Positions 27,958 to 49,300 of a stretch of DNA of 64,000 nucleotides are shown here, in pieces (position 1 is the first letter of the stretch; every line of letters begins with the position of its first letter). This DNA comes from Pedobacter sp. SYSU D00535 (GTDB lineage Bacteria; Bacteroidota; Bacteroidia; Sphingobacteriales; Sphingobacteriaceae), in assembly GCF_017355855.1 (NCBI RefSeq), contig NZ_JAFEWD010000001.1, positions 992,001 through 1,056,000 of the forward strand, written 5' to 3'. A model generated the notes under the pieces. The model made no database searches and was not told the DNA's origin. It saw only the letters and a program-made list of their open reading frames with translations. A program made the position numbers and the translations under genes.

Positions 27958-28200
27958 AACAGAGCGGGGGCTGGTGAATATCTGATTGGTTTTGAAAGAC
28001 ACCAACAGAATATGCTGAGCAAATATAGAAGCGGGCTTATTAAGCACAAGTTAATATAATTTTAAGTTTTACAGGGCTCTCTGATCTCGCTGCCTCCAGG
28101 ATTCATCAATAAAGTCGACGGACGATTTTTTAAAAAAAAAAGAGACTTCCAAATAACGGTTGCTGCCTGTCCAAGGTAATACACTCCTAAAATACCAGGG

Positions 28201-29184: not shown

Positions 29185-29331
29185 GCAAATCCTATATGAA
29201 GACGACAGAGAACAGGTCGCCATAACAGGCCAGAGAACACAGAAAAACCGGACGACCAGAAGGTCACAAACCGGGGGTGAAAGTCACTGGCGGTTCTTCC
29301 TGCCCTTAGAAAAACAAATTAGACTTTCATG

Positions 29332-29368
29332 AAAAAACTCCTCTGCTTGGGGAAGCGTCCGAGGAGTT
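29332..29368 (-). terminator. Minus-strand intrinsic terminator in the FecR-SusC gap
   Basis: AACTCCTC (29336-29343) pairs perfectly with GAGGAGTT (29361-29368), with an inner GCTT/AAGC stem. On the minus strand it is followed by six T (complement of 29332-29337). It lacks a T-run on the plus strand, so it should stop transcripts running antisense to the susC leader. Confidence 0.6.
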
Positions 29369-29388
29369 CTATTATCAATTCAATTATT
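29332..29388 (-). ncRNA. Predicted antisense RNA over the susC leader
   Basis: A TAATTTTG element (minus strand, complement of 29395-29402) matches the TAnnTTTG -7 box of Bacteroidota and ends exactly at the A of the susC start codon. Transcription from about 29388 would end at the terminator at 29332, giving an RNA of about 57 nt. The same arrangement recurs before the susC at 46374. Position and orientation agree with DonS-type cis-antisense RNAs of Bacteroides loci. The -33 element is not convincing. Confidence 0.35.
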
Positions 29389-29401
29389 AATAGACAAAAT
29401 T

Positions 29402-32400
29402 ATGCAAAATTCCTGTGCAAAGGGAAATCATGCGGCATATAAACGCTGTATTGGAAAAAATAAAGATTTTTTTCTAAAGCTGAGCTCCGCAATCCTTATC
29501 CTGCTGCTAATTATTCAGTCTTACCCGGTCAGGGCCAGTGCAGCTAACTTTCAGAAAGACAAGATTGTCCTTGAGGTTAAAGATCAAAGCCTCAAAGCAA
29601 TCCTTAGCGAGATTGGAAGACAATCGAGCCTGCAGCTTGCTTATCCTTCCGAGCACGTCAACCGCTATCCCCGGGTTCGTCTGAACAAGTATACAGGTAC
29701 GGCAAATGAGATGTTGACCGAAGCCCTGAAGGGAACCGATCTGACTTTTTCTATCAGGGCTAATACGATAGTGGTGGTACTTAGAGTAGCTCAAAAAAAT
29801 GACTTGCAAAAAGACAGACGTGTCAGCGGTATAGTCAGCGATACCAAAGGCCTGGCTCTACCGGGAGTTAGTGTGAAAGTGAAAGATGGGAAAGCTTTTG
29901 CAGTAACAGGAACAGACGGGAGATACTCCATCATGGTGCCTGATGAACAGGCAGTCCTGGTTTTCACTTACGTGGGATTTGAAACAGCCGAAGTAGGGGT
30001 TAAAGACCAGGAACAGGTAAACGTAGTCCTCAAAGAAGATCAGAACCTGCTGAGTGAGGTAGTTGTCATCGGATATGGTTCGGTCAGAAAAGAAGATCTG
30101 ACGGGATCTGTCTCGCAGGTCAATCTCGCCGAGCTTACTAAAGCTCCCGTAGCTTCGGTCGACCAGGCCCTTGCTGGAAGGGTGGCTGGTGTTCAGGTAT
30201 CCGTGAATGAAGATGGCCAGCCGGGCGGAGCAATGAACATTCAGATCCGGGGGGCAAATTCCCTTACGCAGAGCAATTCTCCTTTGTATGTAATCGACGG
30301 ATTCCCAATTGAGGGGCCTCAAACCGCATCCTTTAATCCGGAGGACATAGAAACCTTAACTATCCTGAAGGACGCTTCTGCCACAGCAATATATGGAGCC
30401 AGAGGAGCAAATGGTGTCATTGTTATCACCACGAAAAAAGGGAAAGAAGGAAAACCGAGGTTCTCCTACAGTTCTTCTCTCGGATTTAATGAAATAACAA
30501 AGACAATGGACATGTTGAGTCCTTATGAGTTTGTTAAATATGAGCTCGAGCGAAACCCCAATGCTGGTGTAGAGCTGGGATATTTTGCCAACGGGCAGGA
30601 CCTTGAGTCGTACAGAACCCTGAAAGGTGTCGACTGGCAGGACAAGCTGTTCAACTCCGGTGCCACGCAAATACACAATCTGGCCCTCAGAGGCGGTACC
30701 AGGCAAACTAAATATTCCATCTCCGGATCTTTCTTCGACTCTAAAGGAGTTGTGGTAAACACCGGATACAAGCGCTACCAAGCGCGTGTCTCCCTTGATC
30801 AGACCATCTCCGACAAGTTTAAAGCAGGCATTAATGTGAACTACAGCAACCAGCTTACCTTCGGACAGCTGGTGGGGCGTACCTCCGCTACTTCATCTAC
30901 CACCATCAGTGGCTACCTGCTATATTCAACATGGGCCTATCGTCCGGTTAGTGGAAACACTGCGGCTTACGAGGAACAATTGTTGGACCAGGGGATTGAT
31001 GAAACAGTTGATTTTCGTATAAACCCGGTAATCTCTGCACAAAATACATTAAGGGAGAGAAAGCTAAATAATATTATCGGAAATGCTTTCCTCACTTATG
31101 ATATCACGAAGAACCTCCACCTGAAAGTTTCGGGCGGATTGAATGGCCTCTTTAGCAGGAACGACGCTTTCTACAACAGCCAAACCGTGTCTGGCACTCC
31201 GCTTCGCGCTAATAATATTTCCGGAGTCAACGGCTCTGTGGATCACGGAGAAAGGCTCGACTTTGTAAATGAGAATACCATTAACTGGTCTAAACGGTTC
31301 AATTCCCGGCATAAGGTAGACCTCCTCGGGGGCTTTACCCTGCAAGGCGTCAATACCAGTACCTACGGATTTTCGGCCATTCTGGTGCCCAACGAATCGC
31401 TGGGGATTAACGGTTTGAACCAGGGAACTCCACTTGAAACCATTTCTACCACAAGTTACAACCGGCTGTCCTCCTATATCGCCAGGGCAGATTATGGTTA
31501 CAGGTCTAAGTATCTACTTACCGCTACTGTCCGTGCTGATGGATCTTCCAAGTTTGCCCCCGGAAACCGCTGGGGATATTTCCCTTCGGGGGCCTTTGCC
31601 TGGCGAATGCATAAAGAAAAGTTCCTTCGGGGCATAAAGGCAATATCGGAGGCTAAGCTCAGGATCAGTTATGGGGTTACCGGAAATAACCGGGTAAGCG
31701 ACTTTGCCTACCTTCCGGAGCTTAACTTACCTGACCTTGCCAGCTACTCTTTCAATAACGAGCGCTTCTACGGCGTAAATCTGACGAGCCTGGGGAACAG
31801 GCAACTGAAATGGGAGAGTACAGAACAACTGGACCTGGGCTATGATCTCGGGCTTTTCAAAGACCGTATCAGTCTTACCGTTGACCTGTATCGAAAGAAT
31901 ACCAACGACCTGCTCCTGAACGCTAACCTTCCCTACACTACGGGTTACAACAGGGTCTATAAAAATATCGGCAAGGTCAGGAATGAGGGTTTGGAACTGA
32001 CACTGAATACCGTGAACGTAAACTCAAGATCCTTCAGCTGGCGAAGCAATTTCAATATCAGCTTCAACAAAAACAAGATATTGGCCCTGAACGAAGGTGA
32101 AACGCATTTGCTGTCAAACATTAGTTCCTTTGTGAGCCGTATGGCCGAGGAGCCCCTATATATAGCGGAGGTAGGAAAACCAGCAGCAATGTTTTACGGT
32201 CTGGTTTGGGATGGCGTGTACCAGTACGAGGATTTCGTGCAGAACTCGGCAGGGATTTATGTCTTGCGGAACGACCGTCCCACGAATGGTGACCAACGGT
32301 CGGCCATACGCCCCGGGGATATTAAATACCGAGACCTGAATAACGACGGAGTGGTTGATGCCAATGACAAAACCGTTTTAGGAAGCCCCCTCCCTATCCA

Positions 32401-32890
32401 TACAGGAGGATTTTCAAATACTATCACTTTCAAAGGTTTCGACCTCAATGTCCTCATGCAGTGGAGTTATGGCAATAAGCTCATGAATGCAAACAGGCTG
32501 ATCTTCGAAGGAAACATCACCAATATACCAAGCATGAACCAGTTTGCCAGTTGGCAGGAGCGCTGGACGCCCGAGAACCAAAGCAATACTCTTTTCAGGG
32601 CCGGTGGCGCCGGACCACAGGTCATGTCATCGCGGACCCTTGAAGATGGCTCTTACCTCCGCTTAAAAAGCGTTTCTCTCGGATATTCAATTCCTGCAAA
32701 CCTTCTGAGAAGGCTCGGCATAGGTTCCCTGAATTTTAATGTTTCCACCCAGAACCTTCTCACCTGGACAAAGTATTCCGGACTGGATCCGGAAGTATCA
32801 ATATTCAACACGGTATTAACTCCCGGTTTCGATTTTTCAGCCTATCCCAATGCAAGAACGGTAGTGTTTGGAATAAAAGCCGGATTTTAA
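29402..32890 (+). CDS. SusC/RagA TonB-dependent transporter with STN signalling domain
   Basis: 1162 residues. After a long N-terminal leader with a signal peptide (about 24-47) come an STN domain (about 55-120, SLKAILSEIGRQSSLQL), a carboxypeptidase-regulatory-like domain (about 142-215), TonB box and plug (VVVIGYGSVRKEDLTGSV, GANGVIVITTKKG), and a beta-barrel ending VVFGIKAGF. The STN domain contacts the FecR protein to activate the sigma factor when substrate is bound. It pairs with SusD 13 bp downstream. The substrate is judged from the enzymes in the operon: probably a phosphodiester-linked or acylated glycan fragment. Confidence 0.96.
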   Translation: MQNSCAKGNHAAYKRCIGKNKDFFLKLSSAILILLLIIQSYPVRASAANFQKDKIVLEVKDQSLKAILSEIGRQSSLQLAYPSEHVNRYPRVRLNKYTGTANEMLTEALKGTDLTFSIRANTIVVVLRVAQKNDLQKDRRVSGIVSDTKGLALPGVSVKVKDGKAFAVTGTDGRYSIMVPDEQAVLVFTYVGFETAEVGVKDQEQVNVVLKEDQNLLSEVVVIGYGSVRKEDLTGSVSQVNLAELTKAPVASVDQALAGRVAGVQVSVNEDGQPGGAMNIQIRGANSLTQSNSPLYVIDGFPIEGPQTASFNPEDIETLTILKDASATAIYGARGANGVIVITTKKGKEGKPRFSYSSSLGFNEITKTMDMLSPYEFVKYELERNPNAGVELGYFANGQDLESYRTLKGVDWQDKLFNSGATQIHNLALRGGTRQTKYSISGSFFDSKGVVVNTGYKRYQARVSLDQTISDKFKAGINVNYSNQLTFGQLVGRTSATSSTTISGYLLYSTWAYRPVSGNTAAYEEQLLDQGIDETVDFRINPVISAQNTLRERKLNNIIGNAFLTYDITKNLHLKVSGGLNGLFSRNDAFYNSQTVSGTPLRANNISGVNGSVDHGERLDFVNENTINWSKRFNSRHKVDLLGGFTLQGVNTSTYGFSAILVPNESLGINGLNQGTPLETISTTSYNRLSSYIARADYGYRSKYLLTATVRADGSSKFAPGNRWGYFPSGAFAWRMHKEKFLRGIKAISEAKLRISYGVTGNNRVSDFAYLPELNLPDLASYSFNNERFYGVNLTSLGNRQLKWESTEQLDLGYDLGLFKDRISLTVDLYRKNTNDLLLNANLPYTTGYNRVYKNIGKVRNEGLELTLNTVNVNSRSFSWRSNFNISFNKNKILALNEGETHLLSNISSFVSRMAEEPLYIAEVGKPAAMFYGLVWDGVYQYEDFVQNSAGIYVLRNDRPTNGDQRSAIRPGDIKYRDLNNDGVVDANDKTVLGSPLPIHTGGFSNTITFKGFDLNVLMQWSYGNKLMNANRLIFEGNITNIPSMNQFASWQERWTPENQSNTLFRAGGAGPQVMSSRTLEDGSYLRLKSVSLGYSIPANLLRRLGIGSLNFNVSTQNLLTWTKYSGLDPEVSIFNTVLTPGFDFSAYPNARTVVFGIKAGF

Positions 32891-32903
32891 AAGATAAGAT
32901 TAT

Positions 32904-34496
32904 ATGAAGCCAAAATACATACTATCCATGCTGATCCTGCTGGCCACAACTTCATGCAGCGACTTCCTGGAAACAGAACCAAAAGGAACTCTTTCGCCCG
33001 AGTATTATTTCAACAATGAAGCACAGGTAAATGCTGCGTTAGCAGGAGTTTACAGCACCATGGCCGATACCCGCAATGAGGAGCCTTTTTACGCCGCTTC
33101 GTACATCAGTCAGATGGGTACAGAAGGAGATGACGGCTACTACCGTAAAGGTCCGGAGCGAAACATTGTAGGGCAGTTCCTATATTCGGCAAGCGCCCCA
33201 AACCTTTCTGGTCTATGGCAGATCCTGTACAAGGGTATCAACCTTTCCAACTCCCTGCTGGAGAACCTTGACAAGGCTGACATGCCTGGTGATAAGAAAG
33301 AAGTAGTGCGGGGTGAGGCCCTCTTTTTACGCTCCTACTATTATTTCATCCTGGTATCCAACTGGGGGGATGTGCCTCTAACCCTGACGTCCACAAAGTC
33401 CGCACTCGATGCCAGTATCCCCAGGACACCTTCGGCGGAAGTTTACCAGCAGATCACTGCAGACATGGAAAAAGCATACGAACTGGTACCCACAGCTACA
33501 GCTGTAGGTTTCGGCGGTCGCGTGAATAAATCTGCTGTTGCCGGCATACTTGCCAGGGTCAACCTTTACTGGGCCGGTTATCCGCTCAATAAAAAGGATC
33601 GGTTTCAGGAGGCCAGGAAGTGGGCCCTGAAGGTGATCGACTCAAAAGAGCATGCGCTCGATCCTTCATTTCAGCAGATCTTTATCAATTATGCGGCAGA
33701 TAAATACAATATTAAAGAAAGCATCTGGGAGGTAGAGTTCTCGGGAAATCGTACCGACAGGCCGCGGCAGGCGGGCCTGGTAGGCAACTACATTGGTATC
33801 CGTAATACCGGCGATAAGATTGGAAACAGTAATGCCAACGTGCGAGCCGCAGCCAGGCTTTACCGCTTATATGAGGAAGGCGACCTGAGACGCGACTGGG
33901 CAATAGCTCCCTTCGAATACATTCCTACAGACTCCGACATAAAGGTTCCCTATGCCAGCACTGCCATTCATGAGCGGTATGCAGGCAAATACAGAAGAGA
34001 ATATGAGGTGGTCCTGCCAAAGTCGAAGGGATATACTCCCATCAACTATCCCTTACTTCGGTATGCAGATGTGCTGCTGATGTTTGCGGAAGCAGATAAT
34101 GAAGTGAACGGAGCGCCGACAGCCGATGCAATAAAAGCTGTGAATATGGTGAGGCGTCGCGCCTACGGCAAAAATGTGAATGCCGCAAGCGCAGAGGCCG
34201 ATCTGCTCCCCGAACATACTGCCGGCAAAGCTGCCTTTCTTGAGCTGATCAAGGATGAGCGCTCACGGGAACTTTGTTTTGAAAGTTTAAGGAGGAACGA
34301 CCTGATCCGGTGGGGAGACTATGTTTTCGCAATGAAAGCGCTAGCCAATGAATATGAAACAGCTTCAGGTATCTCCAGCACTACAAGAAACATAGTATCC
34401 TCATTAAAATTGGTGGCACCCAAACATCTGCTATGGCCTATCCCAACCCGGGAGATGTCAGTAAATAAAGCTCTAGAACAAAATTCCGGATGGTAA
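32904..34496 (+). CDS. SusD/RagB-family glycan-binding lipoprotein (GDPD locus)
   Basis: 530 residues with lipobox Cys18 (TTSC), SusD helical core (GEALFLRSYYYFILVSNWGDVPLTL, GGRVNKSAVAGILARVNLYWAGYPL) and the end block DERSRELCFESLRRNDLIRWG. It forms the binding lid of the SusC at 29402. Spacing of 13 bp to SusC and 10 bp to the following lipoprotein gene suggests one operon. Specificity is not readable from the sequence. Confidence 0.95.
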   Translation: MKPKYILSMLILLATTSCSDFLETEPKGTLSPEYYFNNEAQVNAALAGVYSTMADTRNEEPFYAASYISQMGTEGDDGYYRKGPERNIVGQFLYSASAPNLSGLWQILYKGINLSNSLLENLDKADMPGDKKEVVRGEALFLRSYYYFILVSNWGDVPLTLTSTKSALDASIPRTPSAEVYQQITADMEKAYELVPTATAVGFGGRVNKSAVAGILARVNLYWAGYPLNKKDRFQEARKWALKVIDSKEHALDPSFQQIFINYAADKYNIKESIWEVEFSGNRTDRPRQAGLVGNYIGIRNTGDKIGNSNANVRAAARLYRLYEEGDLRRDWAIAPFEYIPTDSDIKVPYASTAIHERYAGKYRREYEVVLPKSKGYTPINYPLLRYADVLLMFAEADNEVNGAPTADAIKAVNMVRRRAYGKNVNAASAEADLLPEHTAGKAAFLELIKDERSRELCFESLRRNDLIRWGDYVFAMKALANEYETASGISSTTRNIVSSLKLVAPKHLLWPIPTREMSVNKALEQNSGW

Positions 34497-34506
34497 TTAA
34501 ACTGTA

Positions 34507-35463
34507 ATGAAGACATTAAAAAAACTTTTGATGCTGCTTGCCATCATATTTGTAAGCGGCTGTGATAAATCCCTCGAGATCGATACTCCTGTATTTGATA
34601 TTACTGGAACAAGTATTAAGGACGACACGGATGAAACCGGGCAGCCGGTGAAGAAGGTGACCTTCCATCTTGCCGGAAGTGCCGAATTAATCTCCTTTTA
34701 CTCAGGAGAAGTATTGCGCGATTATGCCTACCGGGAAGGGCGAACAGTGTCGACGAAGGCACTGAATATGTCCTTCTCCACCAATGCAAAATTGAACTCA
34801 GGGACTATTGCCATCCCGAACCAGCTGGCAGTACTTGTATCCACCGATTTTTCAGGAAAATATGAAGAAGCAGATATTGCAGCGGCAACCTGGACCGATA
34901 TAAGTTCCAGCTTTACCTTATCGCCGGTAGTAACCCATGATAATTTCCTGGCCGCGGGCACGGTTGATCTGCGCAGCTATGCTGTTGAAGGCAAACCGCT
35001 TTTCATCGCATTCCGGTACTTAACACCGCCTCAAACCACGGCAAGAAGGCATGTTCAATGGCGTATCCGCGATTTTGCTGTCAGGTTGGTGACCGACCTG
35101 GCCAGCACCGTTGTTGCTAGCCAGGCGACCACCCCCTGGACACTCTATCACAAAGGGCCCTTCGAAAGTGGCCGCTCCGCGACCAACACCTCTCAGCTCA
35201 TTCTCAGAGGGAATAACACCTCAAAGAATTTCCCTGAGCCAACGGAAGACTGGGCAATTTCCCCGGCAATTGAGGTGGGCGGGGAAACTGATTTAGGCCC
35301 TGACCGCCCAATCGCAATCAAAGGGCGTGGCGATGCTCCGCTGACTACATTCACCTATCAGTACCCGACTTCCGGCCAGTACAAGGTTGTTTTCGTCGCT
35401 TCGAACGTAAACATTGAAAATGAAAAGACAATTGTGAAAGAACTTGATTTAACGATCCCCTAA
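34507..35463 (+). CDS. DUF5017-like surface lipoprotein next to SusCD
   Basis: 318 residues with lipobox Cys19 (VSGC). The body is two beta domains, with a cleaved-adhesin/DUF5017-type segment (VVLPKI-free; KVTFHLAGSAELISFYSGE, then YAVEGKPLFIAFRYLTPP) and an Ig/PKD-like end (TFTYQYPTSGQYKVVFVASN). Such proteins sit downstream of SusD and are thought to be accessory surface glycan-binding proteins. No catalytic motif was seen. Its stop codon overlaps the start of the first GDPD gene (TAATG), which implies translational coupling. Confidence 0.75.
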   Translation: MKTLKKLLMLLAIIFVSGCDKSLEIDTPVFDITGTSIKDDTDETGQPVKKVTFHLAGSAELISFYSGEVLRDYAYREGRTVSTKALNMSFSTNAKLNSGTIAIPNQLAVLVSTDFSGKYEEADIAAATWTDISSSFTLSPVVTHDNFLAAGTVDLRSYAVEGKPLFIAFRYLTPPQTTARRHVQWRIRDFAVRLVTDLASTVVASQATTPWTLYHKGPFESGRSATNTSQLILRGNNTSKNFPEPTEDWAISPAIEVGGETDLGPDRPIAIKGRGDAPLTTFTYQYPTSGQYKVVFVASNVNIENEKTIVKELDLTIP

Positions 35464-36386
35464 TGGTCAGTTTAAAAAATATCCTATCTCTCTGCGCCCT
35501 CCTGCTCCCCTTGCTGGTTCCCGCACAAAAACGTTCAGATATCGAGTCTATCCGGCGCAGCAAGGCATCGAAGCAGGTTCTGGTGGCCTGCCACCGGGGT
35601 GGCGACTGGCACAATTTTCCCGAAAATTCGCTGGAGTCTATCCGCTCGGCAATAAATATAGGAGCAGATTTTGTCGAAATAGATGTGAGAAAAACGAGGG
35701 ACGGTAAGCTGATCCTGATGCATGATCGTTCCCTCGAACGCACAACTACAGGAACGGGACTGGTAAAGGATAAAACCTACCAGGAGATCTGCCTGCTGAG
35801 GCTGCGGGACAAGCATAAAAACGAAACTCCTTACCTTATCCCAACACTCGAAGAAGCGCTTATGCTGATGAAGGATAAGGTCTTTATCAAAGTGGATAAG
35901 TACAATGAAGAGAACATCCGAAACGAGATCGTGGAGGTTCTGAAGCGTACAGGAACACTCAGGCAGGCATCCTTCCGTGTAGGACTGGATTATGAAAAGA
36001 CGGTCAAAAACTATGGCGATCTGACCAGGCTGCTGCACCTTTTCCCGGCTATACAAGACAGTGATACTGTAAAAGCAAGGACAGGCGCAGAAATTGCAAA
36101 CTTTCAGCGAAGCCTGAAGCCTGTAGTATTCCAGGCTAAGTTCAAGGACAGTACCTCCGCAGTAGTGCAGTCGATAACTGATCTCAACCAAGCCGGGGAG
36201 CACATTTGGGTGATGGCAAGCAGGGATTATTATTGCGGTGGTTGGGGTGATAAGATCTCCCTGACCGCCCCCGATAAGGGCTGGGGAAAGCTGATCGAGA
36301 AGGGAGTTACCATCATTGAAACAGATTATCCCCAACAATTGCTGGCCTATCTAAAGAAATATAAAAGCAAAAATCAAAAGGACTGA
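35463..36386 (+). CDS. Exported glycerophosphodiester phosphodiesterase (GDPD) family protein 1
   Basis: 307 residues with a signal peptide ending VPAQ. GDPD active-site residues are visible: His44-Arg45 (CHRGGDWHNFPEN with Glu54), metal ligands Glu72 and Asp74 (VEIDVRKTRDG) and His87 (LMHDRS). Family members hydrolyse the phosphodiester between glycerol-phosphate and an alcohol, and some digest poly(glycerol phosphate) of teichoic acids. It starts inside the stop codon of the upstream lipoprotein gene and is followed 4 bp later by a paralogue. Periplasmic location is likely. It probably cleaves phosphodiesters in the substrate imported by SusCD. Confidence 0.92.
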   Translation: MVSLKNILSLCALLLPLLVPAQKRSDIESIRRSKASKQVLVACHRGGDWHNFPENSLESIRSAINIGADFVEIDVRKTRDGKLILMHDRSLERTTTGTGLVKDKTYQEICLLRLRDKHKNETPYLIPTLEEALMLMKDKVFIKVDKYNEENIRNEIVEVLKRTGTLRQASFRVGLDYEKTVKNYGDLTRLLHLFPAIQDSDTVKARTGAEIANFQRSLKPVVFQAKFKDSTSAVVQSITDLNQAGEHIWVMASRDYYCGGWGDKISLTAPDKGWGKLIEKGVTIIETDYPQQLLAYLKKYKSKNQKD

Positions 36387-36390
36387 AAAG

Positions 36391-37338
36391 ATGAAGAAAT
36401 TAATTGCAACCGTCCTCCTCGGGCTGGGAATTTTACAACTTGTCCAGGCTCAATCAAAGACTGCAGTCCGGGCTAAAATAGAGGGAATCTTTAAGCCGGA
36501 GAACAATGCTGTGCTGACTTGCGCGCACCGCGGCGACTGGCGAAACGCACCTGAAAACACCCTTCAGGCTCTATATAACAGTATTGAAATGGGGGTGGAT
36601 ATCATGGAGGTCGACCTGGGCAAGTCAAAAGACGGTCATTTGATCCTGATGCACGACAAAACCCTGGACCGTACGGTAAAAGCCAAAGGAAAACCAGGAG
36701 ATTATACCCTGGCGGAGCTCAAAAGCTTCCCGGTAAGAAACGGAACAGGTCACGCTACTCACCACCGTATTCCAACGTTCGAAGAGCTTATGCTCGCAGC
36801 AAAAGACAAGATCATTATCAATATTGATAAGGGTTACCAATATCTGGATGATGTTGTTGAGGTTTTGCAGAAAACCGGCACTATGGATCAGGCTATCCTG
36901 AGTATAAACAAGAACTTGCCCCTTGACAGTGTGAAGGCGAAGCATCCTAACCTTCCACAGGATCTGCTAATCATGCCGGTTATCGACTTCAGGGACGAGC
37001 AGGCCGCATCTGCTGCCATGGCAAGCTACCGCTCGAAGAAGCGCGTAATCTATCAATTAGATTTTAGCAATGATACCCATCCGCTTTTAAATATGGTGCC
37101 GGCGCTTAAGAAAGAGGGCAACGGCGTATGGTACAACAGCATCTGGCCCGAACTATCGGGAGGTCACCATGACGATAAAGCGGTAGACGAAAGTAAGCCT
37201 GATGAAAGCTGGGGCTGGCTGGTGAAGAAAGATGCCGATGTTATTCAAACGGACCGTCCCTTTCAGCTGGTAAACTATCTCAGGAAAATAAACAACGGCA
37301 AGGTAAATGCAGAAAAACAGAATGGAGGGAGACGATGA
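36391..37338 (+). CDS. Exported glycerophosphodiester phosphodiesterase (GDPD) family protein 2
   Basis: 315 residues with a signal peptide ending VQAQ. Catalytic and metal residues are intact: His46-Arg47, Glu55, Glu73, Asp75 and His88 (CAHRGDWRNAPEN, MEVDLGKSKDG, LMHDKT). It is the tandem paralogue of the preceding protein but diverged throughout, so the two may attack different bonds or stereoisomers. Its 3' end overlaps the next esterase gene by 4 bp (ATGA), evidence of a single tightly coupled operon. Confidence 0.92.
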   Translation: MKKLIATVLLGLGILQLVQAQSKTAVRAKIEGIFKPENNAVLTCAHRGDWRNAPENTLQALYNSIEMGVDIMEVDLGKSKDGHLILMHDKTLDRTVKAKGKPGDYTLAELKSFPVRNGTGHATHHRIPTFEELMLAAKDKIIINIDKGYQYLDDVVEVLQKTGTMDQAILSINKNLPLDSVKAKHPNLPQDLLIMPVIDFRDEQAASAAMASYRSKKRVIYQLDFSNDTHPLLNMVPALKKEGNGVWYNSIWPELSGGHHDDKAVDESKPDESWGWLVKKDADVIQTDRPFQLVNYLRKINNGKVNAEKQNGGRR

Positions 37339-38108: not shown

Positions 38109-38161
38109 GGCTCCCAAGTTCAAACACTCTAACAAATTAGCAGGAAAAGCAGCACCATATT

Positions 38162-39199: not shown

Positions 39200-39271
39200 T
39201 ACTGCCGGGTTCAATCGGAGCTATGCTTTTTTTGGTCTTTGCATGGTTATCTAAGCTTAAATAAGATTTAT

Positions 39272-40198: not shown

Positions 40199-40215
40199 GG
40201 TAAAAACGACGATGA

Positions 40216-40242
40216 GCCCGGACCATTTCAAAACAACCGGGC
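40216..40242 (+). terminator. Weak hairpin after the GDPD operon
   Basis: GCCCGG (40216-40221) pairs with CCGGGC (40237-40242) across a 15-nt loop, 18 bp after the last stop codon of the operon. No T-run follows, so its efficiency is doubtful. It lies in the 187 bp convergent gap before the paoC 3' end. Confidence 0.35.
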
Positions 40243-40385
40243 CTAAGTTGAGGATCTGAACAAGTTCAGGAGGAGGAGCGATATCAGGAGGCAGAACATG
40301 TCTCCATCTTTCCTCTAAGGTACCCACGATGGTAAGCCTGCTGTCCTCCTCCCTCCTTCTGTCACTTACTGCCGCCGCGATAATG

Positions 40386-42623
40386 TTAAATCAACTTATC
40401 GGGAGTCACAGGAAGCTCACGTATGCGCTTGCCAGTAGCGTTAAATATGGCATTGGTGATTGCCGGGGCAACTCCTATGATCGCAATTTCACCCAAGCCT
40501 TTCGTACCCATGGGATCGACAATATAGTCCGGTTTGTCTACAAAATAGACCTCTACCGGCGGCACATCTGCGTGTACGGGAACGTGGTAATCTGCCAGAT
40601 CTTTAGTAACATATCGCCCGAAGCGGTGATCCATGACGGCATCCTCCTGAAGGGCCATTCCGATTCCTCCGGTAACACCACCGATCATTTGATTGGCTGC
40701 TGTTTTCTTGTTGACGATCGTTCCCGCATCGGCGCAGCTTACTACCTTTTTCACGCGGACCTGGCCTGTCATAGGATGTACATGTACTTCTGCAAAATGG
40801 ACTGAAAAGGAGTATCTGGAGTATTTGGATGCCTCCTGGCTGGGTTTCGAATCCTGCAGCACATCCAGTTCTGTCAAATTCTGCTTCTTCAGAAGTTCGG
40901 TGTAAGCCACTTTTACTGACGGCGAGCGGGTGATAGAAAGATGGGCTTTATCGAAAGTGACATCCTCCAATTTCAGATTGGCAAAACGTTTATCTGCTGA
41001 AGGAGCCATCTCCAACAGCCGTTCTTTCATTGCCTGGCAGGTTGCCACCACTGCCGAACCTACCGTGGCCACCGTAGCAGACCCTCCCTGGTTAGGCGCC
41101 TGGGGAAAATCAGAATTCCCCAACTGGAAGGTGATCTTTTCGGGACTTATACCCAGATGTTCTGATGCGATCTGCACCATGGCAGTACCTGTCCCCGGCC
41201 CGATGTCGGTTACTGCACTTTGAAAAACGACCGAACCGTTAGCCAGTAACTTGGCCCGTACAGCTGCAGCGCCGCGATGTGCTCCAAACGTTCCAACTCC
41301 CATGCCGTAACCGACCAGCCATTCCCCGGAGCGAACACCGCCCGGTTTCAATGAGCGTTTGCTCCAGCCTATTTTCTCGGCTCCCACCTGTATACACTCC
41401 TTCAGGTATTTGGTAGACCAGGGTAGATTTTTTTCGGGATCTGTATCCGTATGGTTCATCAGACGCAGTTGCACAGGATCGATGTTTAAAGCAAAAGCGA
41501 GTTCATCTATGGCCGACTCCAAAGCAAAAGCTCCGGTGGCTTCACCTGGTCCGCGCATCCAGATCGGGGTGCTCACGTCTAAAGGCAGAAGCCGGTATTT
41601 AGTACCGATATTCGGACTCGTGTACATCATTTTGCTTTGCTGCAACGTTGACTCCGTGAATTCTTCATACGACGATGTCTGCCCTATGGCTTCGTGATAA
41701 ATGCCTGTCAGCCTGCCATCTTTATCTGCTCCAATACCGATCTTTTGCCAGGTATAGGGACGATAGCCTACCATAAAGAACATCTGTTCGCGGGTGAGCA
41801 TGACCTTTACCGGGCGTTTCACCATTTTTGCGGCAATAATAGCTGCTGTTTCGTGCGGCCAGTTATGCAGGCCATTTCCGAAAGCTCCGCCTACAAACTC
41901 TGAAATCACGCGCACATTCTGGACGGGGATTTTCCATTCGTTAGCAAAAGCCTGTTGTGTCGGCTTGGTTCCCTGCACCTTGTCATAAACAATCAGCTTG
42001 TCATCCGCTTCCCAATAGGCCGTTATTGCCTGTAATTCCATGGGATTATGCACTTCCGAGGGATGTACGTACTCGGCCTCAAGCCGGACAGATGCAGTTT
42101 TATAGGCATCCGCTTTGCCGCGTTCATAGTCCGCTAAACCTGATTTCGGATTTTTCTTCACAACAGCAGGGACAACAGCTTTTCCTTTGTTCTTCTCGAA
42201 GTTGGTTTCGTGTTTCTCTTCCTCGTATTCGGCTTTGACAAGCATCGCTGCATGGCGGGCACGCTCGTAGGTATCAGCTACCACAATCGCTATAGGTTGC
42301 CCGTTGGAGTAAACCCGGTTGTTGTAAAAAGCCCGCAAGGGTCTGCCACCGGTAGGTGGTTCTGTTGGGTGCTCATTATCTGCCCAACCAGGAACTTTAA
42401 TCGCGTTTTCATGAGAAATCACGGCAATTACTCCCGGAGCACGAAGAGCAGCCCGGGAATCTATCGAACGTATTCTCCCTTTGGCAATCGTACTCGATAC
42501 AACTACTCCATAGCTGAGATTGGGCAACTGGTATTCGGCGGAATAACGTGCAGCTCCTGTTACCTTCAGTTTCCCGTCGACCCGGTTCATCGGATCTCCT
42601 ATAACTTTATCAAAAAACTTCAT
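40386..42623 (-). CDS. paoC: PaoC-like molybdenum-cofactor subunit of aldehyde oxidoreductase
   Basis: 745 residues from the ATG at 42623; a longer frame to 42659 would overlap the upstream gene. The protein belongs to the xanthine oxidase family large subunits (FVGGAFGNG, PIWMRGPGEATG, GMGVGTFGAHRGAAAV, IGPGTGTAMVQIASE). The active-site Glu is at about 712 in GLGEIAIIG. It oxidises aldehydes, using a molybdopterin cofactor. The operon order, iron-sulfur, FAD, Mo, equals E. coli PaoABC. A PaoD/XdhC-like insertion chaperone is not in view. The symbol is by homology. Confidence 0.92.
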   Translation of the reverse strand: MKFFDKVIGDPMNRVDGKLKVTGAARYSAEYQLPNLSYGVVVSSTIAKGRIRSIDSRAALRAPGVIAVISHENAIKVPGWADNEHPTEPPTGGRPLRAFYNNRVYSNGQPIAIVVADTYERARHAAMLVKAEYEEEKHETNFEKNKGKAVVPAVVKKNPKSGLADYERGKADAYKTASVRLEAEYVHPSEVHNPMELQAITAYWEADDKLIVYDKVQGTKPTQQAFANEWKIPVQNVRVISEFVGGAFGNGLHNWPHETAAIIAAKMVKRPVKVMLTREQMFFMVGYRPYTWQKIGIGADKDGRLTGIYHEAIGQTSSYEEFTESTLQQSKMMYTSPNIGTKYRLLPLDVSTPIWMRGPGEATGAFALESAIDELAFALNIDPVQLRLMNHTDTDPEKNLPWSTKYLKECIQVGAEKIGWSKRSLKPGGVRSGEWLVGYGMGVGTFGAHRGAAAVRAKLLANGSVVFQSAVTDIGPGTGTAMVQIASEHLGISPEKITFQLGNSDFPQAPNQGGSATVATVGSAVVATCQAMKERLLEMAPSADKRFANLKLEDVTFDKAHLSITRSPSVKVAYTELLKKQNLTELDVLQDSKPSQEASKYSRYSFSVHFAEVHVHPMTGQVRVKKVVSCADAGTIVNKKTAANQMIGGVTGGIGMALQEDAVMDHRFGRYVTKDLADYHVPVHADVPPVEVYFVDKPDYIVDPMGTKGLGEIAIIGVAPAITNAIFNATGKRIRELPVTPDKLI

Positions 42624-42639
42624 GGAAATGTCTGATAGC

Positions 42640-43623
42640 TTAAACCAATTTTGATGCAACTTTCAAAGCCTGAATAATAGCATTCGGGGTGAGCTTCAAC
42701 TTATATTCATTGTATTTGAACCCTTTTGCGCCTTTCATCGCCAGTTGCGCCACCTCTCTAAAAGTAGATTCAGAGACTGGTTTTCCAACCAGGGCCCGCT
42801 CCGCCTCCGATAAACGCCAGGGCTTATGGGCTACGCCACCAAGAGCGAGCCGGGCATCCCGAATCACTTTTTTTTCTATCTGCAAAGCCGCAGCAACCGA
42901 TACCAGAGCAAAAGCATAAGAGGCTCGATCACGAACTTTGAGGTAATGGACATTTTTTGCGAAACGGTTATCCGGGATTTCTACCCCAAGTATCAGTTCC
43001 CCCGGTAGGAGGTTGGTATCGATCTCTGGTCGGTCTCCAGGCAAGCGATGAAAATCTATAAATGGGATGCGCCTTTGTCCTTTAGGCCCGTCCACCACCA
43101 CTGTTGCGTCAAGCGCGACAAGGGCCACGCTCATATCACTCGGATGCACTGCAATACATTTTTCGCTAAAGCCGAAAATGGCATGCATCCGGTTAAAGCC
43201 TTCCAGCGCACCGCAGCCGCTTCCTGGCTCTCTTTTATTACAGGGCAAAGCAGTATCATAAAAGTAGTGGCAACGAGTGCGCTGGAGCATGTTGCCCCCT
43301 ACGGTAGCCATATTTCTTATTTGGGCAGAAGCGCCGGCGTTAAGCGCCTGCACCAACAGCGGTTGTTTTTGCTGTACGGTCTTATTTTCGGCCACGGTGC
43401 TGTTTAGAGCCAGCGAGCCGATCTTCAGTGATTTACCCTCCGTAGTGATATCTGTAAGAGGTAATCTGGAGATATCTATCAGACGTTCAGGGCTTACAAT
43501 GCCACGTTTCATCAGGTCGACCAGGTTTGTTCCTCCTGCAATAAACATAGCCGTTTTATCCCTTGAAATGGCATCAAGAGCAGCCTTTGCGGCCGTGGCC
43601 CGGGTATATTGAAATTGGATCAT
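42640..43623 (-). CDS. paoB: PaoB-like FAD-binding subunit with an extra iron-sulfur site
   Basis: 327 residues of the CoxM/XdhB FAD-binding type: FIAGGTNLVDLMKRG and MATVGGNMLQRTRC are the FAD-binding loops. An insert carries four Cys residues (118, 128, 137, 156; RCHYF, LPCNKREPGSGCG, EKCIAV), as in E. coli PaoB, which carries an additional [4Fe-4S] cluster. It passes electrons between the molybdenum centre and the acceptor. It overlaps the upstream gene by 4 bp and precedes paoC by 16 bp. Confidence 0.93.
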   Translation of the reverse strand: MIQFQYTRATAAKAALDAISRDKTAMFIAGGTNLVDLMKRGIVSPERLIDISRLPLTDITTEGKSLKIGSLALNSTVAENKTVQQKQPLLVQALNAGASAQIRNMATVGGNMLQRTRCHYFYDTALPCNKREPGSGCGALEGFNRMHAIFGFSEKCIAVHPSDMSVALVALDATVVVDGPKGQRRIPFIDFHRLPGDRPEIDTNLLPGELILGVEIPDNRFAKNVHYLKVRDRASYAFALVSVAAALQIEKKVIRDARLALGGVAHKPWRLSEAERALVGKPVSESTFREVAQLAMKGAKGFKYNEYKLKLTPNAIIQALKVASKLV

Positions 43624-44258
43624 ACCTTTTTTCCTCCCTTCTTCACTTCCACAATCGCATTTACGATATTAGGATAGGCGCCGCAGCGACAAATATTTCC
43701 GCTCATGTACTCCCTGATCTCCTCTTCTGAATCTGCATGGCCCTCACGAATACAGGCTATTGCCGACATGATCTGACCAGGAGTACAATAGCCACACTGA
43801 AATCCATCATGCTTCAGAAATGCTTCCTGCATCGGATGTAGTTGATCTCCCTCCGCCAGGCCTTCAATGGTAGTCACTTTCCTGCCATCCTGCATTACGG
43901 CCAGGGTAAGGCATGAGAGGACACGGGTACCATTGACGTGGACCGTACAAGCACCGCACTGACCATAGTCGCAGCCTTTTTTTGTTCCCGTAAGATTCAG
44001 CTGCTCTCGAAGAAGGTCCAGGAGCGTTACCCTTGGTTCTACCATCAAACTTTTACTAACCCCGTTTACTTCTAACTTCAGCGGGATTTTCTCCAGAGCC
44101 TCTGCTAATTTTTCATCCCACTGCGCTTCTGCAGCCTTTAAGGCAATAGAAGGTGTTAGTACTGCTCCGGTAAGAACTGCCGACTGCTTTAAAAAATCTC
44201 GCCGGCTATCAGATTTAGATTCGCCGCTTTGCTGATCCCGGGAATTTATTTTAGACAT
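43620..44258 (-). CDS. paoA: PaoA-like [2Fe-2S] subunit with TAT signal
   Basis: 212 residues. A twin-arginine signal (SRRDFLK, Arg19-Arg20, then a hydrophobic stretch) shows that the folded complex goes to the periplasm. The first [2Fe-2S] cluster uses Cys96, 101, 104 and 116 (GCDYGQCGACT), the second Cys145, 148, 180 and 182 (CGYC, CRCG). It is the first gene of the operon, divergent from the sigma gene at 44513, with 254 bp between. All eight ligands are present. Confidence 0.95.
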   Translation of the reverse strand: MSKINSRDQQSGESKSDSRRDFLKQSAVLTGAVLTPSIALKAAEAQWDEKLAEALEKIPLKLEVNGVSKSLMVEPRVTLLDLLREQLNLTGTKKGCDYGQCGACTVHVNGTRVLSCLTLAVMQDGRKVTTIEGLAEGDQLHPMQEAFLKHDGFQCGYCTPGQIMSAIACIREGHADSEEEIREYMSGNICRCGAYPNIVNAIVEVKKGGKKV

Positions 44259-44512
44259 GATAATTAGTTAAATGCTGGATGTAGATAAAAGAATGTTCCA
44301 CTTGATAAAAGGCCAAAGCGGTTCCTTTGTTTATAGTATTTGCAATTAGATCGTGTTTTCGGCTAGGTGGTCTTGGGGTTCCAACAATCTCTTCGGATGA
44401 ATAGAATACCGGAGTTTTTTTGAACGCCACAGGCTCAATTAGTCTTGTTCTTTCAAATACTAATCTCTACATTAGTGGTATAACCGATTACTGCCAATTT
44501 CAACCTCTTGCC

Positions 44513-45076
44513 ATGACAGACCAAGAATTAAGAGAAATATTAATAAAAGTCTCTTTCGATGAAGATCGTAAGGCCTTTAAGCGGTTATTCTTTTTCTATT
44601 ACCCTAACATGTTGAAGCTTGCTTCGTCTTTTGTCAAGTCGAATGAGGAGGCTGAAGAGATAGTAGATGATGCGTTTATAAAGATCTGGCAGAACCGCAG
44701 TAAGTTATATCAGGTAAACAACCTGAAGGTCTATCTTTTTGTATGTGTAAAAAATCTTTGCTTCAATTACCTTGAAAAGAAAAAAAGGCTTCCGATTATA
44801 AGTATTGACGACATTGAATTTGATCCCGCAGAACCGCATGTTTATCCGGAGCAGCGTTTATTCTTTCTTGACGTGCAAAGTCAGGTAGAAGACGCAGTAA
44901 AACAACTTACTCCCCAAAGTCAGTTAGTTTTCCGTTTAGTAAAAGAAGAGGGACTTAAGTACCGTGAAGCGGCTCAGGTGTTAAACCTATCCGTTAAAAC
45001 AGTTGAGTATCACATAGGAAATGCGCTCAAAAAAATCGCCGAAAAGCTTACCGTGGCGGTAAATAAAAAAAAGTAA
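44513..45076 (+). CDS. ECF RNA polymerase sigma factor of the pectin locus
   Basis: 187 residues from the ATG at 44513 (MTDQELREIL); the frame opens further upstream with TTG but that extension has no family features. Region 2 (AFKRLFFFYYPNMLKLASSFV, AEEIVDDAFIKIWQNR) and region 4 (LTPQSQLVFRLVKEEGLKYREAAQVLNLS) are clear. It is followed by FecR after 56 bp on the same strand and probably directs transcription of the SusCD genes. Normal length for RpoE-like sigmas of Bacteroidota. Confidence 0.94.
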   Translation: MTDQELREILIKVSFDEDRKAFKRLFFFYYPNMLKLASSFVKSNEEAEEIVDDAFIKIWQNRSKLYQVNNLKVYLFVCVKNLCFNYLEKKKRLPIISIDDIEFDPAEPHVYPEQRLFFLDVQSQVEDAVKQLTPQSQLVFRLVKEEGLKYREAAQVLNLSVKTVEYHIGNALKKIAEKLTVAVNKKK

Positions 45077-45132
45077 AAATATATTTAGGGTGTTTTCTGT
45101 ATTTCCGGTCCTTATAGTGTAAGGCACCTTAA

Positions 45133-46209
45133 ATGGATTCTGGGAAACTTTGGATATTAGTAGGAAAAAAGCTAAGTGGTGAAGCCACTTCGTTGGAACT
45201 GCATCAGTTGGAACAGTTCCTTGATGCCGGTTTTTCCGAAATTTATCCGGTCGAAGAGATTGAAAGATACTGGCATCAGAACCCGCTAACTCCCCCCAAA
45301 GACATTCAGGCTTATCTTGATAAAAAATGGGACAGGTTTGAACGGAAGTTAGATGAACTTGCAGAGGTTGATGAGCAAGAAAGCAACGATACAGCACCTT
45401 ACCGATCTTTTAGACCCTACTACTGGATGGGAGCCGCCGCGGTGGCTATCCTGGCTGTCTTATATTCCTTACTACATGTTACCCCCACCCCCTACACCGC
45501 TGCCCATATCAATGAGGTTTTTGCTCCCGACCGCGGGATAAGCAAAATCAAGCTTCCCGATGGTACACGTGTTTGGCTTAACTCTGGCAGTAAGCTTTCT
45601 TATACCAAAGAATTTGGCGACAAGCTCAGAGAGGTTAAGTTGGAAGGAGAAGCTTATTTTGACGTTGTAAAAGATCCGGAGCATCCTTTCATTGTAAAGA
45701 CTCACACTATCAATTTAAAGGTATTAGGGACGGCCTTTAATGTAAGAAGTTACTCAAATGAGGAGCTGACAGAAACCTCACTGGTTCATGGAAGTATACA
45801 GGTAAACCTGGTTAATTCCAGCGAGAAAGAAATAATACTAAAGCCATCCGAAAAGCTTATTGTAAGCAATAAAGTAGCTGCTCCTCAGCCAGGAAGTAAA
45901 TCCACCAAAGTGAACGAAGCACCTTTAATTACGCTTCGGTATACGCATAAGTCAGTTAAAGACACTCTGCCATCAGAAGCCTTGTGGCTTGAAAATAAAC
46001 TTGCCTTTGACTCCGAGCCTTTCATGCAAGTTGCGAAGCGTTTAGAGCGCTGGTATAATGTAGAAATACAAATAAAAAAAGAAGAGCTTTTAGAAAAAGA
46101 ATTTACCGGAAGGTTTGAGAACGAGTCGCTATCCGAGGCTCTTAGCGCATTACGATTATCCTATAACTTTGACTATAGAATTACCGGAAACCGGGTAATT
46201 ATATTTTAA
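45133..46209 (+). CDS. FecR-family anti-sigma factor of the pectin locus
   Basis: 358 residues: cytosolic part of about 95 residues (LSGEATSLELHQLEQFL), one transmembrane helix about 98-113 (WMGAAAVAILAVLYSLL), the FecR domain (IKLPDGTRVWLNSGSKLSY, GEAYFDVVKDPEHPFIVKT, LGTAFNVRSY) and a C-terminal DUF4974-type unit ending RITGNRVIIF. It links the STN domain of the following SusC to the sigma factor at 44513. A 164 bp gap before SusC contains a minus-strand terminator, as in the GDPD locus. Confidence 0.95.
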   Translation: MDSGKLWILVGKKLSGEATSLELHQLEQFLDAGFSEIYPVEEIERYWHQNPLTPPKDIQAYLDKKWDRFERKLDELAEVDEQESNDTAPYRSFRPYYWMGAAAVAILAVLYSLLHVTPTPYTAAHINEVFAPDRGISKIKLPDGTRVWLNSGSKLSYTKEFGDKLREVKLEGEAYFDVVKDPEHPFIVKTHTINLKVLGTAFNVRSYSNEELTETSLVHGSIQVNLVNSSEKEIILKPSEKLIVSNKVAAPQPGSKSTKVNEAPLITLRYTHKSVKDTLPSEALWLENKLAFDSEPFMQVAKRLERWYNVEIQIKKEELLEKEFTGRFENESLSEALSALRLSYNFDYRITGNRVIIF

Positions 46210-46279
46210 CTAACAACCAATTGTATAACCTTTAGTAAGACCTGTATGAGAGATAATTAACCCGTATTTTTTAAGGATG

Positions 46280-46307
46280 AAAAAAGGGAAACGTTGGCGC
46301 GTTTCCC
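46280..46307 (-). terminator. Minus-strand intrinsic terminator in the FecR-SusC gap
   Basis: GGGAAACG (46286-46293) pairs perfectly with CGTTTCCC (46300-46307) around TTGGCG. On the minus strand six T follow (complement of 46280-46285); no T-run lies on the plus strand. It should end transcripts antisense to the susC leader, as at 29332. Confidence 0.65.
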
Positions 46308-46360
46308 CATAGAAGTCAATAAACTATTTAGCTCGTTTCATTAACTAATAGTTCAAATTA
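46280..46360 (-). ncRNA. Predicted antisense RNA over the susC leader (pectin locus)
   Basis: TAAATTTG (minus strand, complement of 46367-46374) matches the TAnnTTTG box and ends at the A of the susC start codon, exactly as in the GDPD locus. Transcription from about 46360 to the terminator would give about 80 nt. Both start contexts read CAAA-W-TTATGCAAAA. Prediction only; no -33 element is convincing. Confidence 0.35.
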
Positions 46361-46373
46361 ACCATTCAAATTT

Positions 46374-49300
46374 ATGCAAAAAAAACATAACTGGGGATCC
46401 TATTTCCAGTCGAATTCCCTTTTAAAATTTCTGATTATGTTTAAATGTATCCTTTTACTGGTATTAATCTCAGCAGCGGAGACATTTTCCAAAGGTTACA
46501 GTCAGACCACCATAACTCTTCATGCAAATAACGTACCTATTAAGAAGGTCTTACGAGAAATCGAAAGGACTACTGAGTACCGCTTTTTATACAACGATGA
46601 TGTTATCAGCGGCGCAAAGGTAAGAGATGTGAATGCAAAGAATGCGACGCTGGACGAAGTGATGCAGTCGCTGTTGGAGAATACTGACCTTACGTATAAA
46701 AAAACCAGTGGAAACTTAGTGGTTTTATCCGTTAAACCCTCAACGCAAATACTTAATATCACCGGGACGGTTGTCGATAGTAAGGGCGAACCTCTGCCTG
46801 GTGTAACGGTAAAAATTAAGGGAACCAATACCGCCACAAGTACCGACGTGAATGGCGTCTTTCGGTTAAATGTTCCTAATGGCGATGAAACCCTGGTCAT
46901 AAGCTTTATTGGCTTTAAAACTCAGGAAATAGCCGTAAACAGACAGACCTCCCTCAATGTCAGGTTGCAGGAGGATTCCCAATCTCTGGAGCAGGTGATC
47001 GTAACGGGATATGGTACCACTACAACAAAGGGTGCTACCACCAGTGCCATCGATGCAATCAGGTCAGAGGAGATTGAAGATCTTCCGGTTGGAAACCTCA
47101 GTACAGCACTAGCTGGAAGACTCCTTGGTGCTTCGGTAGATGGTGGCATCACCCGCCCTGGCGCTTCTGCTTCGCTAACGATCAGAAATCCGGTATCGTT
47201 AGCCAGAAACCCAATGACGACCCCCTTATATGTCATCGATGACGTAATACAAATTAACGGTCAGACCGGAGCGCCCGATAATACTCTTTTTAACAGCCTG
47301 GACGCTTCTGAAATAGAAAGCATCACCATCCTCAAAGATGCTGCAGCAGCAATTTACGGTTCCCGGGCAGCAAACGGTGCTGTGATTGTAAAGACGAAGA
47401 GAGGTAAAGAAGGAGCTCCGCGGATAAGCTATAGCGGGCAGTTCGGTTCGAATGACGAAGCTTACAGAACTAAAATGTTAAGCGCCTATGAAATGGGACA
47501 GTATGTGAACATTATGAACGGTCCTAACGGATATAACCGAAGCGCTTCTGATCCTCAATATTTCTTCTCTGCCGATGAGCTGGAAACCATGAAAAATTTG
47601 AATTACGATTGGCTGGAAGACAACTGGAAAACCTCTTATAACATGAGGCATACTTTCAATGTAAGTGGTGGGGCCAATAATTCAACTTACTTCGCCAATT
47701 TCTCTTACTATACACAGGATGGTAATATTGGAAAGCTTGATCACAACCGATATACTTTTCGTGCAGGAGCAGATGTAAACCTGGCTACTGGTCTCAAGGC
47801 TGGCTTGCAGGTTTCAGGGAACTTTCAGGATATATCGAGAATTAATAATGAATTGGGTGGTGAAGATGCAGAGCGGGATTATAAGACCCTTATTCAAACT
47901 CCTCGTTATATTCCTATGTATGTCGATGGCCTGCCCGTCAGGGTTCCGGGAACGGGATATCATTTCAATGAAATTGAAAGAACAAATAATTACAGAGAAA
48001 ATGATAACCGCACGACCGTCGTGAATTTGTATGCGGAATATGAGCTGCCTTTCCTTAAAGGCTTAAAAGCTCGTGCTCAGTATGCCAGAACGATGGGTAA
48101 TGGTACCGACTCGAGGATCGGAGGAAGATATAATACTTATGACTTTGAAACTAAAACAGGAGGAAATAATCACCTGTATGAGGGCGCCACAAATCCACGC
48201 CTGGTTGTCATTTCCAATGATAATCGCGTTCGTTTTTTCAATGATCGATCGTATAATACTCAATTTAACTTTTCAACCAGCTACAGCGGTAACATTGGAA
48301 AGCACTCATTCGGAGCTTTTGCAACTGTAGAACGGCAGGAGACAGGTTTGAATCGCGAAGAAGTTCGTAAAGAAAACCCTATCATCGGTTCTAATGGTCA
48401 GTTAAATACAGCCTTTGGAGAGATTGGCGGTAATTCCACTGCCTTTGAAGGAGGGTCTTTAGGTTACGTCGCCCGGGCTAACTACAGCTTCGACAACAAA
48501 TACCTTGTTGACCTTATGTTCCGAAGTGATGCATCCACCAAGTTTGCCCCTGAAAACTATTGGGGTAAATTCTATTCTCTTGGCACTGGCTGGGTGATTT
48601 CAGAAGAGAATTTCTTTAATATTTCGGCGGTCGACTTCCTTAAAATACGGTACTCAATAGGCCTACTAGGCGCTGACGATACTGAATTATGGACTTGGAG
48701 ACAACGCTATACCTACCAGAATGGGAAAGGCGGTGTTTTTGGCACAGCTACAAATATACCGGCTGGTACCGGGATGAAAATGGAAGCGTCTCCTAACCGC
48801 GATCAAACCTGGAGTAGTCAGGTTAAGCACAATCTGGGTTTAGACGCACGTTTTTTACAGTCGCGTCTTTCTGCTACCGTTGAAGGATTTTTCACAAGAG
48901 CTACTGACCTATTGTTGATTCCTACTGCAGGTATCCCTGCCACGGCGGGCGGATCAGTGGCGGCACAAAACTTTGGAGCGGGTGACCTTTTTGGCTATGA
49001 GATAGCTTTGGGATGGAACGCTACGATTGGAAGGAAATTTACCTATGGAATAGACACCCGATTCCAATGGTACGATAATAGAATGCACTCCGGTAACTTC
49101 AACAGTACACAGGCTGCGTTTCCATGGTTAGCTCAGCCAGGACAGTCAAGTGATAATGGCCAATGGGGGTATGATTACCTGGGGATGTTCCGGGATCAGG
49201 CGGAAATAGATGCCTATGTACAGCAGTATAAAATCACCCAAGTGACCGACCTTAACGGTGGCAACGCGGTTTTAGCCTCACAGTTTAAGCCGGGGATGCT

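Follow-up and report, generated by a model that had tools for sequence, protein, structure and literature searches.

To our knowledge, how each sigma/anti-sigma/SusC locus stays silent until its own nutrient appears is not settled. Two such loci lie in the 64,000-nucleotide stretch of Pedobacter sp. SYSU D00535 DNA analyzed here (herein the window; positions are counted from its first letter), part of a 4.9-Mb genome with 70 Plug-domain matches. The same genome has 14 FecR C-terminal matches in FecR-sized frames (317 to 460 aa) which, minus an identical copy and one that is probably not FecR, give 12 distinct FecR-SusC pairs. Plug and FecR matches with identical scores occur in the first ~112 kb of contig G000:C11 and in contig G000:C12 from ~692 kb, at offsets of 681134 (one pair) and 675008 (the others); judged by these scores, the assembly probably contains a duplicated stretch. 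We consider it likely that each FecR-SusC gap in the window carries a small antisense RNA gene, the product of which would probably repress susC until the ECF sigma factor is released. The genes of the two loci, with their Pfam E values, are as follows:

27352-28047, minus strand: ECF sigma gene, locus 1 (Sigma70_r4_2 8.8e-17, Sigma70_r2 1e-10)
28201-29184, plus strand: fecR (anti-sigma), locus 1 (FecR_C 1.8e-14, FecR 7.3e-14)
29402-32890, plus strand: susC 1, STN-type TonB-dependent receptor, presumed target (Plug 6.1e-21; STN 5e-4, below cut-off)
44420-45076, plus strand: ECF sigma gene, locus 2 (Sigma70_r4_2 8.2e-13)
45133-46209, plus strand: fecR, locus 2 (FecR_C 2.1e-23)
46374-49877, plus strand: susC 2, STN-type, presumed target (STN 8.3e-14, Plug 8.2e-14)

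Both loci also have a susD, and the FecR, SusC, and SusD assignments are confirmed by Pfam; the STN domain of SusC 1 scores under the Pfam cut-off (20.3 versus 28.4 bits). At locus 1, sigma gene and fecR are divergently oriented, unlike at locus 2, where they are co-directional. Within the gaps the following features can be read or predicted:

29332-29368, minus strand: intrinsic terminator of predicted antisense RNA 1, from the sequence (dG -9.4 in the scan)
29243-29274, minus strand: second terminator-like hairpin, the distal one at locus 1 (stem at 29248-29274 with T's after it; dG -10.3)
29332-29390, minus strand: predicted antisense RNA 1, ~59 nt (~148 nt if the end is 29243), starting 5 nt beyond the box
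29395-29402, minus strand: -7 box TAATTTTG on the susC 1 start codon (plus strand CAAAATTA)
46280-46307, minus strand: intrinsic terminator of predicted antisense RNA 2 (dG -11.1; stem 66 to 88 nt from the ATG)
46280-46362, minus strand: predicted antisense RNA 2, ~83 nt (sequence-based prediction; fold z-score below)
46367-46374, minus strand: -7 box TAAATTTG on the susC 2 start codon (plus strand CAAATTTA)

An earlier note on this DNA had described, in both gaps, a perfect stem with a T-run after it on the minus strand alone, a minus-strand TAnnTTTG ending on the A of the susC ATG, and a start context CAAA-W-TTATGCAAAA common to the two susC genes. Direct reading bears out each of these: both stems have 8 bp, the box ends exactly on that A at both loci, and the shared context is correct. 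The SusC gene at 5736-8792, cited in the note as lacking such signals, indeed has neither terminator nor box. In gap 1 an A-run (29332-29337) borders a stem of eight perfect pairs (29336-29343 with 29361-29368), two of the six T's also being paired and the plus side having no T-run; nested inside is a 4-bp GCTT/AAGC hairpin, the loop of which reads CCCC on the minus strand. Gap 2 has an A-run at 46280-46285 and eight perfect pairs between 46286-46293 and 46300-46307. The distal hairpin of gap 1, 127 to 154 nt from the ATG, was missing from the note. Fold z-scores are -2.8 (minus) and -2.5 (plus) for predicted RNA 1 and -4.3 (minus) and -2.6 (plus) for predicted RNA 2, and the inverted repeat of locus 1 folds with -15.6 kcal/mol on the plus strand versus -14.4 kcal/mol on the minus strand. 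Locus 1 is atypical: its near terminator is the weaker of two, would give an RNA of only ~59 nt, and folds about equally on the plus strand.

Rfam gave no match in the window at gathering scores. Across 13 loci it gave four matches (E 0.54 to 0.95), each far under the threshold of its own family; one of them, to SCARNA7 (L094, 461-597; 19.5 versus 65 bits), overlaps a gap and was taken as chance. Gap 1 had no match in the plasmid collection.

Two window loci alone would be weak evidence; the counts below come from a wider set of gaps, a gap being the DNA from the end of fecR to the start of susC. The sample was drawn from among the FecR matches listed and comprises, besides the window's own genome, 100 chosen by place and 29 loci; the FecR places omitted lie mainly in genome G020. 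Rows L095 (own-genome duplicate), L061 (same locus as L104), L083 (fecR stop too far), L102 (no stop in the stretch, probably not FecR), and L109 (without susC) were dropped, and 139 FecR-susC pairs from 22 genomes were retained of the 141 tried. Counts refer to the 120 gaps of at least 80 bp, from 19 genomes; the 19 gaps shorter than 80 bp were kept apart. One of the 120 comes from family f15 (G050) and the rest from f1, the family of the window's genome, which we take to be Sphingobacteriaceae in view of the Pedobacter origin of the closest named SusC 1 relative in the scan.

A folding-based scan found an intrinsic terminator on the minus strand in 93 of the 120 gaps and on the plus strand in 7. 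Ten dinucleotide shuffles of the same gaps gave 14 to 26 minus and 0 to 4 plus terminators. The window's own genome has a minus terminator in 8/9 gaps, and such terminators occur in 18/19 genomes. Their stems begin 34 to 127 nt upstream of the ATG in 90/93 gaps.

The minus-strand TAnnTTTG, which reads CAAANNTA on the plus strand, was scanned for from -120 to +90 in the 120 gaps. It is strongly placed: 43 copies lie at -7 (CAAANNTATG, the register seen in gap 1), 29 at -3 (CAAATGTA, with the ATG inside the box), and 5 at -8, all other offsets having two or fewer each, and the plus-strand version occurs 7 times in total. An exact box falls within -12 to +5 in 81/120 gaps (3.6 expected from shuffles that keep the ATG); 18 of the 39 gaps without an exact box are one letter off. 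Among the gaps shorter than 80 bp, 1/19 has a box. Both signals occur together in 71/120 gaps and neither in 17/120; the box is found in 71/93 gaps with a terminator versus 10 of the 27 in which no terminator was detected (Fisher p = 3e-4). Removing redundant gaps leaves minus terminators in 88/115, plus terminators in 7/115, and boxes in 76/115. Over the gap set, then, both signals are far above chance. In agreement with the earlier note, neither aligned columns nor positional k-mers revealed a convincing -33 box in these gaps. The same search gave a weak TAC, in 14/77 cases, located at +17 counted from where the box begins.

Several other sequence elements recur in the gaps. The 12-mer GCTTGGGGAAGC is present three times in the genome: in gap 1 (29345-29356), in the gap of L092 (G000:C11:447813-447824), and inside one coding frame which, from its translation, resembles glycogen synthase. 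Six of the 120 gaps contain it, and on the minus strand it folds into a hairpin whose loop is CCCC. A nearly invariant minus-strand element, AGTTAATAC..GCTTCCCCAAGC..GGGTATTA, is common to five gaps (L092, L105, L116, L120, and L071) of three genera, where it lies between box and terminator at about -55 to -18 from the susC ATG; its functional strand could be either. In some loops of the 93 minus hairpins, short words recur in both orientations (TTGGCG/CGCCAA, TTAGCG/CGCTAA), as if flipped between arms. A search of the non-coding part for spaced 4-mers that might mark a sense ECF promoter gave no dyad that clearly exceeded shuffles, apart from parts of the GCTTGGGGAAGC module; spaced-4-mer hits obtained with the final 60 bases of fecR included seem to reflect coding conservation.

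The inverted repeats could instead act on the other strand, as a hairpin in the leader of the susC mRNA, with the CAAA...ATG context serving translation initiation only. The repeat does fold in the sense RNA as well, as the values for locus 1 show. A strand-neutral search for inverted repeats beside an A-run, which found them in 90 gaps, distinguishes the strands: stem mismatches are plus-strand A.C, which is a U.G wobble in the minus RNA, in 68 cases and plus-strand G.T in 3 (63 to 3 in non-redundant gaps; ten shuffles gave 36 repeats, 12 to 7). The minus RNA is therefore the one under selection. This asymmetry also disfavors a protein-binding palindrome, and on it we rejected the sense-leader hairpin; the T-run, on the minus side in 93/120 gaps and on the plus side in 7/120, argues the same way. 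As to the start context, the A-rich positions -14/-13 are fixed relative to the ATG in both register classes, as expected of a translation signal, and the box moves as a unit; the two constraints are separable. The earlier note had named conservation for translation alone as one finding that would overturn its reading. What we find is a box in two registers (43 at -7, 29 at -3), not one, that tracks the minus terminator and seldom occurs where SusC is not next to FecR. Overall, we regard a sense-strand leader element as very improbable.

A more serious competitor to the antisense regulator holds that AT-rich susC starts fire antisense transcripts accidentally and that the terminators merely protect fecR, the RNA being non-regulatory or acting through collision only. 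The start context that the box overlaps is indeed A-rich, with A at -14/-13 whichever register applies, and antisense RNAs of a flavobacterium are largely ascribed to pervasive transcription in the portion of the published account available to us (PMC9723704). Controls away from FecR bear directly on this idea. We took 40 of the 70 Plug matches in the window's genome and, with L242 left out for having too little upstream DNA, obtained 39 non-FecR SusC starts, each set at the first in-frame ATG, which may be wrong for some. Only one has a box, and within 150 bp there are 4 minus terminators and 1 plus terminator; L227, the single box-bearing control, is among those with a minus terminator, and it may itself be a further antisense locus. 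In the window and loci L001-L090, 9 of 161 other ORF starts (any ATG-started ORF of at least 150 aa on either strand, spurious ones included) carry the box, and 8 of these 9 ORFs are 3360 to 3483 nt long, the size of an STN-SusC gene.

Splitting the SusC proteins of relatives and of the window by length as a stand-in for STN (duplicates L053 and L054 dropped) gives the same picture. Those of at least 1110 aa have a box in 14/19 and a minus terminator in 13/19 (the window's two included), whereas shorter ones have 0/39 and 4/39. L032, a SusC 2 homologue (62% identity) with no room for STN, has neither signal. The two signals therefore track the signaling type of SusC. A box near the start of susC is also found outside FecR loci: of the 17 named SusC 1 homologues without STN, five (L312, L313, L315, L319, and L323, which look alike) have it at -10/-11 without a terminator, as accidental firing would allow. 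That SusC starts away from FecR mostly lack the box (1/39; 0/39) argues against a general accident, as does the retention of an exact box while its surroundings diverge (115 of the 120 gaps being non-redundant). We hold insulation without regulation to be unlikely, and return to the antisense repressor.

Relatives of SusC 1 differ in what they have of the pattern. The closest named relative in the scan, from Pedobacter sp. SYP-B3415 (L310, 62%), retains nearly every letter of the hairpin, the GCTTGGGGAAGC core included, as well as the box; the spacer between them has changed. Another relative from the same genus (L002, 63%) has the box in the other register and no terminator passing the scan, and an STN-type homologue from Chitinophaga (L314) has neither signal. 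Among the 19 named loci, L310 is the only one with both signals, L321 and L326 have a minus terminator without a box, and only the matches of L310 and L314 begin before residue 60.

Reach beyond the family was assessed by even sampling of the phylum and a second fetch, again with gaps of at least 80 bp (L305 was lost for want of a susC). Family f26 has minus terminators in 15/16 gaps, plus terminators in 1/16, and boxes in 8/16; f25 has 8/10, 3/10, and 4/10, respectively. The single f22 gap has both minus terminator and box, and the single gaps of f15 and f34 have the minus terminator and no box. Minus terminators occur in 2/10 gaps of f41, with no box, and in 0/1 each of f32 and f47. Five f41 gaps (L262, L263, L265, L266, and L299), mostly without the antisense pattern, share the word AAGCGCTTTT upstream of the start, with TGGAAGCGCTTTT in 4/5; we take this word to resemble a LacI/GalR-type operator.

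The first sample of family f62 (1/12 minus and 3/12 plus terminators, 2/12 boxes) suggested that the layout was absent from it. Genus g132 of this family speaks against that, with minus terminators in 10/14 gaps, a plus terminator in 1/14, and boxes in 7/14 (5 at -7, 2 at -12), although four of the box-bearing gaps (L363, L372, L374, and L386) are clearly alike and not independent. The remaining nine f62 gaps lack the box; a minus terminator occurs in one of them and a plus terminator in two. These f62 and g132 loci are 28 of 30 and then 25 of 28 new ones among the matches listed. We take g132 to be Bacteroides-like, the Bacteroides-Prevotella 16S probe site being present in two of its genomes, and it has up to 65 FecR_C matches per genome. 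In four further g132 gaps (L360, L361, L376, and L382) a minus terminator lies 120 to 156 nt upstream of susC, with no exact box.

The earlier note's central claim, minus-strand RNAs of the DonS type over both leaders, is well supported in its anatomy by box, terminator, and wobbles at the sequence level. Each RNA would start at a primary-sigma promoter on the minus strand, the -7 box TAnnTTTG of which is written across the susC start codon. Promoters of Flavobacterium psychrophilum have this consensus at -12 to -5 (PMC9723704), and transcription would therefore begin ~5 nt beyond the box; in the main register this places the start ~12 nt before the ATG. The RNA would run back through the susC leader and stop at the intrinsic terminator before fecR, making it complementary to the DNA just upstream of susC. 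At both window loci the predicted RNA is located opposite the beginning of a susC homologue that neighbors an anti-sigma gene. A primary-sigma promoter of its own is indicated by the exact -7 box as read from the DNA, without a -33 box, and a discrete 3' end, a criterion of this analysis, by the intrinsic terminator. Taking the most stable terminator of each gap, the predicted lengths have a median of 95 nt (IQR 87 to 119, range 66 to 208; n = 71 gaps with box and terminator).

We infer from these features antisense transcription, repression, and a sense leader that spans the RNA. susC would probably be kept low until the ECF sigma factor of the locus is released; pairing with the leader may lead to decay of the RNA or a block in translation, and collision of polymerases may contribute as well or act in place of pairing. 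From the published lowering of susC homologues by DonS we infer, in particular, a leader-pairing repressor under the housekeeping sigma factor. We offer more tentatively, at somewhat under even confidence, the broader idea that the antisense promoter embedded in the start codon could be a regular third part of the sigma/anti-sigma/STN-SusC unit across the class Bacteroidia, most long FecR-SusC gaps having a housekeeping-sigma lock of their own that sets the induction threshold and insulates the many parallel surface-sensing loci of a cell. Because the promoter would lie in the DNA of the start codon itself, such a lock could hardly be lost without affecting translation.

These observations matter because genomes of this group can carry many sigma/anti-sigma/SusC loci, from the 12 pairs here to the dozens of FecR_C matches in g132. 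They yield a simple sequence rule, a minus-strand TAnnTTTG on the susC ATG followed by a minus terminator with its stem start 34 to 127 nt upstream, which predicts such RNAs from sequence alone and beyond the gut species so far studied. Among open-licence papers we found no account of this box-terminator architecture outside Bacteroides.

Antisense RNAs at polysaccharide utilization loci (PULs) are known from Bacteroides, as far as the accessible parts of the published accounts describe them. Members of the DonS family in Bacteroides are 78 to 128 nt long, lie antisense to susC homologues, and lower their expression (PMC7366714); 32 PUL-associated antisense RNAs are reported in B. thetaiotaomicron, some anti-correlated with their PUL and others, a point against the repressor reading, correlated positively (PMC10994844), and 15 PULs with such RNAs in B. 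fragilis (PMC9723704). In F. psychrophilum 287 antisense regions lie opposite very diverse genes and are mostly attributed, in what is available of that study, to imperfect termination or stray initiation (PMC9723704). They share with the present loci the -7 consensus TAnnTTTG at -12 to -5 and differ in that no susC-start architecture is described in the accessible text (PMC9723704).

The RNAs predicted here resemble DonS in being short, antisense, and divergent to a susC homologue. Their median of 95 nt falls within the DonS range as given in the available text; in the window, ~83 nt is predicted at locus 2 and ~59 or 148 nt at locus 1. The likeness is one of length and orientation. The box-plus-terminator layout is also shared by gaps of the presumably Bacteroides-like genus g132. 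The differences lie in the group of organisms and in extent, most long FecR-SusC gaps here having the terminator (93/120) and 71/120 the box too, compared with the 15 PULs reported for B. fragilis and the 32 RNAs for B. thetaiotaomicron. Taken together, the comparison supports both window RNAs as predicted members of the DonS kind, with a putative start-codon promoter conserved at most long f1 gaps, and the kind of repression described in gut Bacteroides seems widely distributed.
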